Assembly: GCA_022794215.1 (NCBI GenBank)
Contig: JAAWEH010000006.1
Coordinates: 1 to 64,000 of the forward strand
Source: Oscillospiraceae bacterium
Lineage (GTDB): Bacteria; Bacillota; Clostridia; Oscillospirales; Oscillospiraceae
Direction of reading: 5' to 3'
Length of the DNA: 64,000 nucleotides
Below are positions 176 to 1,232 of the stretch, one piece after another; positions within the stretch are counted from its first letter, which is position 1; each line of letters begins with the position of its first letter. Both the position numbers and the translations under genes were made by a program. The notes below the pieces were generated by a model. That model had not been told where the DNA came from, searched no databases, and was given only the letters and a program-made list of their open reading frames with translations.

Positions 176-204
176 AGGTTACCACCATCGGCATGGTTTG
201 TCAA
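176..204 (-). promoter_or_regulatory. Strong sigma-A promoter (rRNA-type)
   Basis: On the minus strand, TTGACA and TAACCT are separated by 17 bases. It would start transcription near 168 and drive the rRNA-like leader leftwards out of the window. Confidence 0.65.
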
Positions 205-301
205 GCGTTTTTTTGAAATTTCTGAAAACTTTTTTCTCTTATCCTGTATAACCCTTGCCGTTCTAAGGAAAAATAGGTACCACAACAAAAGTAAATTTCA
301 A

Positions 302-330
302 CCCCCCGGCCTTCCATCGAGACCGGGGGG
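302..330 (-). terminator. Hairpin ending the upstream RNA candidate
   Basis: CCCCCCGGTCT pairs with AGGCCGGGGGG (11 pairs, one G-U) around a 7-base loop. On the minus strand it is followed by a broken T tract (TTGAAATTTACTTTTG). It separates the upstream transcript from the rRNA-type promoter. Confidence 0.6.
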
Positions 331-657
331 TCAGTTCTGGTTGGGCTCTATCAATGTTGTTTACCTCTTCTTTCCTAGGGTTTCGCTCTGCTGAAATCAT
401 GGAACTGAGTCTTTTTCCTTCGCTTCACAGTCACTGAAAACTCGTTGAGCCTTTCTCGGGTACCTTTTCTTTCGCGATCCTTCACGTCAGTGGATCCGAT
501 TCGCTCTTGTCTCACATCGTGTGAGTGGTTTTGGAGCTGTCCTTACTACATGGAAACGACTGGTTCTGATTTCGCTCGGCCGGAAGTCCTTTTTACTCCC
601 GTTCAGAAAGCGGTCTTCTGAGATGGCTTTTTTAGCCCATTGGACTCACCTCTTTCT
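303..657 (-). ncRNA. Unidentified structured RNA candidate, about 355 nt
   Basis: The region lies between a consensus promoter (664-692) and a strong hairpin terminator (302-330), both on the minus strand. It has no credible ORF: the ORF-track entries here are on the other strand and lack ribosome sites. The minus-strand RNA would be purine-rich with many short hairpins (GGCTAAAAAAGCC, CTCACACGATGTGAG, GGATC...GGATC) and a recurring GAGCGAA-like loop motif. I looked for hallmarks of RNase P RNA, tmRNA, 6S and SRP RNA and found none. It could be a separate small RNA or a distal part of the rRNA control region. Confidence 0.4.
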
Positions 658-663
658 GGTTGT

Positions 664-692
664 ATTGTACAATAGCTTCTCCGTTTTGTCAA
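664..692 (-). promoter_or_regulatory. Near-consensus sigma-A promoter for the RNA candidate
   Basis: Minus strand: TTGACA, 17-base spacer, TACAAT. It points leftwards into a gene-free region and lies just beyond the end of spoVAC, so it cannot serve that gene. Confidence 0.7.
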
Positions 693-732: not shown

Positions 733-1179
733 CTAAGCCAGCCCCAACAGCAGCAAAATCAGCCCATAGAGCACACTGGTGCTAATGCCGAACACCAGTA
801 CCGGCCCTGCAATCACAAACATCTTGGCCGCTACGCCCATAATCAGCCCCTCGCTCTTAAACTCCAGCGCCGGGGATACCACAGCGTTGGCAAAGCCGGT
901 GATGGGCACCAGGGTACCTGCTCCGGCGTGCTTGGCAAGCTTATCAAACACCCCCAGCCCGGTAAGCACGGCCGACAAAAGGATCAGCGAAACGGATACC
1001 GCCGCAGCCGCGTCGTCCTGCTCCAGGCCGCAGGAATTCTGATAAAAATTCAGCATCACCTGTCCCAAGGTGCAGATCAGCCCGCCCACGCAAAAAGCCC
1101 ACAAACAGTTTTTCCCGCTGGGGGACGGACTGGATTTTGAGTTGACATACTTGCCGTAATCCTGATTGGTCATATCCAT
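733..1179 (-). CDS. spoVAC: Stage V sporulation protein AC
   Basis: This is a small membrane protein of the SpoVA channel, which moves dipicolinic acid into the forespore and out again at germination. The 148-residue product has the family N-terminus MTNQDYGKYVNSKS, the segment NCLWAFCVGGLICTLGQ and several hydrophobic helices. The start at 1179 is chosen because GGGAGG sits 8 bases upstream. The longer ATG at 1203 overlaps a possible forespore promoter. The usual partners spoVAD and spoVAE are not adjacent: the next features leftwards are RNA-related. The gene stands alone, which is less common than the spoVAC-AD-AE operon. The family call is firm; the exact start is likely. Confidence 0.9.
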   Translation of the reverse strand: MDMTNQDYGKYVNSKSSPSPSGKNCLWAFCVGGLICTLGQVMLNFYQNSCGLEQDDAAAAVSVSLILLSAVLTGLGVFDKLAKHAGAGTLVPITGFANAVVSPALEFKSEGLIMGVAAKMFVIAGPVLVFGISTSVLYGLILLLLGLA

Positions 1180-1202
1180 GGTGTGCGCCTCCCTTTCCGG
1201 CA

Positions 1203-1232
1203 TAGTTTAGCGCAGTTTTCCTTTTTTATTCA
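1203..1232 (-). promoter_or_regulatory. Possible forespore (sigma-G/F-type) promoter of spoVAC
   Basis: Minus strand TGAATA, 17 bases, TAAACTA resembles the sigma-G pattern TGAATA / CATACTA. It overlaps the upstream ATG at 1203, which argues for the downstream start. The match at -10 is imperfect. Confidence 0.35.

Follow-up and report, generated by a model that had tools for sequence, protein, structure and literature searches.

An Oscillospiraceae bacterium carries, next to an rRNA operon, what is best read as an independently transcribed, vertically inherited and structured RNA of ~360 nt predicted length, which would engage ribosomes at both of its ends, probably for its own stability and in the service of a trans-acting role. 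Expression and function are inferred, and this reading taken as a whole is, if anything, slightly more likely to prove wrong than right. What is shown by comparison between homologues is that the unit has its own promoter with an A+T-rich element, a terminator hairpin, a covarying rod, and two modules in which a Shine-Dalgarno sequence (SD) is followed by a very short reading frame. No known class has this architecture and it is likely to define a new family, a judgement that rests on the open-access literature only and leaves the mechanism open; no earlier report of the RNA was found in the open-access literature searched, bioRxiv and most subscription papers being outside reach. The window referred to throughout is the whole stretch of DNA analysed, namely the first 64 kb of a contig from an incomplete genome (68% complete).

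The features of the locus are collected in Table 1. Among 29 aligned homologues the TTGACA, the spacing and the TA...T of the promoter show no variation, a result which carries the caveat that the search pattern demanded most of the motif; hits obtained with blastn and with R1, a sequence-only covariance model of the promoter and 5′ end, show the promoter too. Upstream of the -35 the A+T content is 74%, compared with 41% further up (63 homologues), and this stretch is UP-element-like. At the other end, the final hairpin of 14 pairs is strong and terminator-like and the U-tract which follows it is broken up (TTGAAATTTACTTTT), in homologues as well as in the window, so that the efficiency of termination is uncertain and termination may possibly be incomplete. 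The tail beyond the hairpin (window 278-298) is conserved in homologues as TTGTGYTKTTTYTGGG, an interrupted U-tract and then GGG. From 657 to 299 the minus strand contains no ORF of ≥60 aa.

The initial annotation, made without database searches, had described a gene-free unit beside an rRNA operon, in which a TTGACA-17-TACAAT promoter fires into about 355 bases without an ORF that end in a strong GC hairpin. The promoter held, as did the hairpin, but with an interrupted U-tract. The absence of ORFs held in part: there is none of ≥60 aa, but two tiny frames with SDs, ORF1 and ORF2, had been overlooked, and “gene-free” is not quite right for an RNA with translation-initiation modules at both ends. 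The adjacency to the rRNA operon is real but incidental, as set out below.

Table 1. Positions in the window of the RNA, its parts and the neighbouring rRNA promoter.
Feature	Position	Strand	Remarks
Separate rRNA operon promoter	176..204	-	TTGACA-17-TAACCT; outside the RNA; rRNA leader follows
RNA itself	299..657	-	both ends inferred: start some nt downstream of 664, 3′ end just beyond 299
Terminator hairpin	299..333	-	TGACCCCCCGG..CCGGGGGGTTG, then interrupted U-tract
ORF2	331..354	-	TTG ATA GAG CCC AAC CAG AAC TGA (MIEPNQN, then stop); stop within base of terminator stem
SD2	363..375	-	GGAAAGAAGAGGT; median -13.1 kcal/mol
Central structured domain	384..581	-	long rod, two side arms; R2 match, 62.4 bits, E 4e-15
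Hairpin CTCAC-ACGAT-GTGAG (helix 11)	511..525	-	most conserved element of the domain
ORF1, minigene	632..640	-	ATG GGC TAA (Met-Gly-stop); two codons
SD1	646..657	-	AGAAAGAGGTGA; very strong Shine-Dalgarno at 5′ end
Sigma-A-type promoter	664..692	-	TTGACA (692-687), 17-nt spacer, TACAAT (669-664); score 11/12

Within the genus, BLASTN detects homologues of the RNA in 14 of 16 genomes. When 85,000 species genomes were scanned for the promoter and 5′ end and the candidates were read locus by locus, the RNA was placed in Pseudoflavonifractor, Flavonifractor, Oscillibacter, Lawsonibacter and other Oscillospiraceae. With R1, matches at E≤0.01 were obtained in 239 of 401 sampled Oscillospiraceae genomes (about 90 at E≤1e-6, by our own count), and outside the family there were only a few strong hits. 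Several pattern matches were discarded on inspection as not homologous; these comprised the SD and ATG of ordinary genes (L061, L070, L072 and L094), a DUF1292-like start (L102) and transposase-like remnants in Blautia (L112 and L118). As the homologues share ancestry, the counts given here overstate the number of independent events, and the combinations of codons and stops are the safer measure.

A spoVAC/AE-type gene (736-1203, minus strand, PF03862) precedes the promoter, and about 30 loci from several genera have a gene of this type ahead of the RNA in the same orientation, which argues that the locus is vertically inherited; the Pfam assignment was made for the window copy only. Downstream, a 16S gene is present behind the same arrangement in two relatives (L010 and L014). 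In further loci (L013, L151, L179 and others) the promoter-to-terminator unit is intact without rRNA behind it and is followed by a metA-like gene, named from its sequence; other downstream neighbours are an actin-like (MreB-type) gene and, in Flavonifractor, an oppositely oriented gene. Since promoter and terminator are retained at loci without rRNA behind them, the RNA cannot be regarded as the distal part of an rRNA leader, the outcome which the initial annotation had said would refute it. The rRNA neighbourhood is incidental, being restricted to part of the genus, and is not the function. An rRNA leader or attenuator was rejected as an identity for the RNA, given that the downstream genes change and that the rRNA operon has a separate promoter.

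The middle of the RNA is a conserved, structured domain with covariation, present in many genera. Members of the genus, folded singly, all give the same rod with its CUCAC..GUGAG hairpin and a second arm. R2, a covariance model of the central domain trained on 6 sequences from relatives with the window sequence left out, matches 44 of 82 loci (E≤1), 38 of which are beyond the training set, and every match falls within the RNA, in its orientation; outside the genus the best match has an E of about 1e-15. The placement of these matches is independent support for the domain, because the loci had been found through the 5′ end alone. In the model-fitted alignment A4, changes on both sides are seen in 45 of 50 pairs, 87.1% of cells are paired (71.9% in shuffles, 25-39% in slid controls) and the covariation score is 0.297 vs 0.117. 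A referee may object that pair counts from an alignment fitted to the model are biased towards that model, and this is so; free RNAalifold on A4 recovers two hairpins only. When whole RNAs were aligned by sequence alone with MAFFT, RNAalifold was misled by misalignment, since the middle varies in length, and the domain was isolated and a covariance model used instead. This length ranges from about 30 nt in one locus (L043) to >600 nt in three (L026, L032 and L087).

Folding energy adds little. The 359-nt RNA folds better than 100 of 100 dinucleotide shuffles (z -3.2), and z is -1.8 without the terminal hairpin; energy from a single sequence is weak evidence, and it is conservation that decides the structure. 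Pairing between start regions (CCAATG/CATTGG) was also seen, with no covariation across clades by eye. Four loci (L026, L031, L032 and L087) are long variants of about 500-840 nt, in which the middle is expanded by GGATT/GATTC-like purine-rich repeats.

With regard to known classes, searches against Rfam 15 gave nothing at gathering score in the whole window and only chance-level matches at a relaxed threshold, and there was no match inside the RNA in ~40 related loci. RNase P RNA, which the 5′ end faintly recalls (GAGGAAAGUCC), was rejected, as RF00010 is found elsewhere in all five good genomes of the genus (239-259 bits); 6S RNA likewise lies elsewhere in five genomes (68-84 bits), and true tmRNA is above cut-off elsewhere in four genomes (G001, G007, G008 and G011), with none here. 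A sponge of GGA type for CsrA, similar to CsrB or RsmZ, would fit the size, the purine richness and the GGA motifs, which occur both in the loop of the terminator and in the long variants; it is all but excluded by the absence of CsrA (PF02599) from 15 of 16 RNA-carrying genomes in a search whose controls worked.

The remaining claims of the initial annotation can be judged on these data. That the RNA is a candidate new structured RNA is supported, the covariance model finding the domain in many genera with compensatory changes, and that known RNA classes of such size do not match has held for the window and for its relatives. Two of the checks which it had suggested, an Rfam covariance search and a look for compensatory changes in relatives, returned no family at the gathering or the relaxed threshold and the double changes described above, respectively. 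Its picture of many short hairpins has to be corrected to one in which a single long rod with side hairpins dominates.

The 5′ end of the RNA, AGAAAGAGGTGARYCC, is an extended Shine-Dalgarno sequence. Against the 16S tail, SD1 reaches a median of -18.6 kcal/mol (93 homologues), and none of the 46 large ORFs in the window has an SD as strong, even with six start choices allowed per ORF. Inspected by eye, nearly every SD1 lacks a single base of full complementarity to the 16S tail (AGAAAG-AGGTGA, AGAAAGGAG-TGA or AGAAAGG-GTGA), as if perfect pairing were avoided. A start codon follows SD1 in 92 of 93 distinct homologues, 77 of which have a stop as their third codon (TAG 34, TAA 28, TGA 15) behind a second codon of eight kinds (GGC, TAC, ATT, ATC, ACC, AAC, TTC and TGC). 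The minigene is not absolute, about 15% being without the third-codon stop and one without the start. Folding of the whole RNA gives SD1 and SD2 a predicted chance of only about 0.45 of being unpaired, which is an average accessibility.

At the 3′ end the SD is moderately strong, and about 30% of the ORFs in the window match SD2 in strength. ORF2, which it precedes, has 6-10 codons, and at most 1 nt (0-1 nt) separates its end from the C-run of the terminator hairpin. It is present in 85 of 93 homologues under a strict rule, compared with a mean of 0.8 (maximum 3) in dinucleotide shuffles and of 3.2 (maximum 10) when SD and start are held fixed; under a looser SD rule it is present in all 93. 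Starts are TTG (36), ATG (33) and GTG (16) and stops TAG (41), TGA (23) and TAA (21). It is the sole feature kept in every lineage, including a 150-nt form without the middle domain (L043) and tandem paralogues. Tandem paralogues of the RNA occur in genome G206 (L187 and L218) and genome G700 (L162); some tandem copies are only about 150-250 nt, with most of the middle domain missing and ORF2 kept (MLDIK../MLDNK..).

Such persistence invites the view that the RNA is a micropeptide messenger, in which the product of ORF2, a hydrophilic peptide of 6-10 residues, is functional and the remainder of the RNA serves as a regulatory leader. In its favour, beyond the retention of ORF2 in every lineage, changes fall most often at third codon positions (331 vs 213 and 208), the synonymous fraction is higher in frame (0.26 vs 0.17 and 0.11) and MLDNK recurs in another family (L157 and L162). 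Against it, there are 70 different peptides among 77 distinct frames, the commonest start is TTG, codons and stops are not optimised, and the synonymous fraction is no higher than in column-permuted controls, 40 of 300 of which were at least as high. A conserved ORF2 peptide was rejected on this last result, and the messenger is considered an unlikely explanation. The frame, with its start and stop, is strongly conserved, much more so than the peptide, whose conservation is not significant. From sequence comparison, without ribosome profiling, we infer that it is the act of translation which is conserved and that the peptide is at most loosely constrained.

The position of ORF2 also brings to mind a cis-acting attenuator, in which translation of ORF2 to its stop would open the terminator and allow read-through into the genes downstream, here the rRNA operon. 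Almost every homologue has the stop at the foot of the terminator stem, and the imperfect U-tract would suit such a device. However, the downstream genes differ between loci (rRNA, metA-like, actin-like MreB-type, or a gene on the opposite strand) and the rRNA operon has a promoter of its own, which makes this reading very unlikely.

Outside the Oscillospiraceae, the full architecture was found in one family, once in tandem (L157 and L162). Similar 5′ modules, repeated, occur in loci of two further families (f23 and f26) and in two Clostridia MAGs of unknown family. Up to five modules of SD and minigene are present per locus in L239-L241 (encoding MYR, MK, MYT, MK and MI, each followed by a stop), where shuffles give 0.1. 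These minus-strand arrays (about 1500-1920 in reverse-complement coordinates) lie in one promoter-driven stretch that opens with a 20-codon ORF (MCLDEPIGQIRMVRAQGSIR, then stop); L240 lacks one module and has a different stop in another. In L239, L159, L113 and L076 a DUF1292 gene and a 6S RNA gene lie on the side from which transcription of the minigene RNA departs. The exact module form was found in 4 of 391 genomes of the class, all within the order. It is possible that the arrays are homologous to the Oscillospiraceae RNA, on the basis of the promoter and 5′ element, which is suggestive and not proof. A viral-labelled contig (L119, IMG/VR contig IMGVR_UViG_3300031555_002082) has at about 1530-1900 a related promoter and AGAAAGAGGTGAGTCC transcript, with more SD-like repeats and start codons missing.

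A further alternative is that the RNA is a ribosome sponge or sensor, the high-affinity SDs of which titrate or sense free 30S subunits as CsrB titrates CsrA. Each RNA has two SDs, SD1 being near-maximal, the relatives with similar modules bear the arrays just described, and several modules in L159, L113, L076 and L237 retain the SD despite a lost start codon. On the other hand, ribosomes far outnumber most RNAs, so that titration would need very high expression, for which there are no data, and SD2 is only moderately strong; we regard the sponge as improbable. A bolder version, which we also doubt, would see an Oscillospirales-wide class of ribosome-recruiting minigenes (SD, ATG, 1-3 codons and stop), in arrays of two to five elsewhere and as two modules flanking a rod in the Oscillospiraceae; ribosomes would be held on such RNAs while they initiate and terminate, and the pool of free ribosomes would in this way be measured or buffered. 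If true, it would be a ribosome-directed RNA counterpart of the action of 6S RNA on RNA polymerase.

The reading preferred here, that of a stand-alone RNA stabilised by ribosomes, can be put as a series of inferred steps. From the A+T-rich upstream element and the strict -35 the RNA is inferred to be probably abundant. Ribosomes or 30S subunits at SD1 would act as a cap against 5′-to-3′ decay, in the manner of STAB-SD and hbs of Firmicutes; in Gram-positive bacteria an SD at the 5′ end can stabilise an RNA even when no start codon follows (PMC3997798). The immediate stop of ORF1 would release ribosomes and keep them out of the rod, those on ORF2 would occupy the other end, at the terminator, and the conserved feature would be translation as an act rather than any peptide. 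The folded middle, which is lineage-variable and almost absent in one lineage, would bear the trans-acting function. Few large structured RNAs are known from bacteria, and this one would add to them a family from common gut bacteria (Flavonifractor, Pseudoflavonifractor and Oscillibacter); its conserved two-codon and seven-codon frames suggest that the landing and release of ribosomes can itself be the job of an RNA.

Comparison with known systems yields partial likenesses only. Like tmRNA, the RNA is about 350 nt, structured and equipped with a short internal reading frame; unlike tmRNA, it has no tRNA-like ends, its frame has its own SD and start, and four of the tested relatives have a genuine tmRNA gene elsewhere. 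With CsrB, CsrC and RsmZ it shares size, a strong promoter, a terminal hairpin, purine richness and, in relatives, repeated binding motifs; here, however, CsrA is missing and the motif matches the 16S anti-Shine-Dalgarno. The dual-function sRNAs RNAIII, SgrS and SR1 are also stand-alone RNAs of 200-500 nt in which a dedicated promoter and terminator enclose a structured body and a small ORF, but theirs encodes a protein of 26-43 aa, whereas the frames described here have 2 and 6-10 codons and hardly conserved peptides, and there is no sequence relation and there are no known targets.

The closest parallels to the 5′ end are the stabilisers of cryIIIA (STAB-SD), hbs and ermC, which likewise have a strong SD close to the 5′ end; this is expected to hold ribosomes and block decay of RNase J type, the start codon being dispensable (PMC3997798). 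Those elements lead a protein gene, whereas here what the SD would stabilise is a structured RNA that stands alone and has, besides its two-codon frame, another frame near the 3′ end. In form, the modules resemble the minigenes of phage lambda bar and axe-txe (PMC8708949), in which an SD and a start are followed by one or a few codons and a stop; those, however, are single elements of phage or toxin-antitoxin operons, whereas the modules found here belong to the conserved make-up of a structured RNA family and form arrays in relatives.
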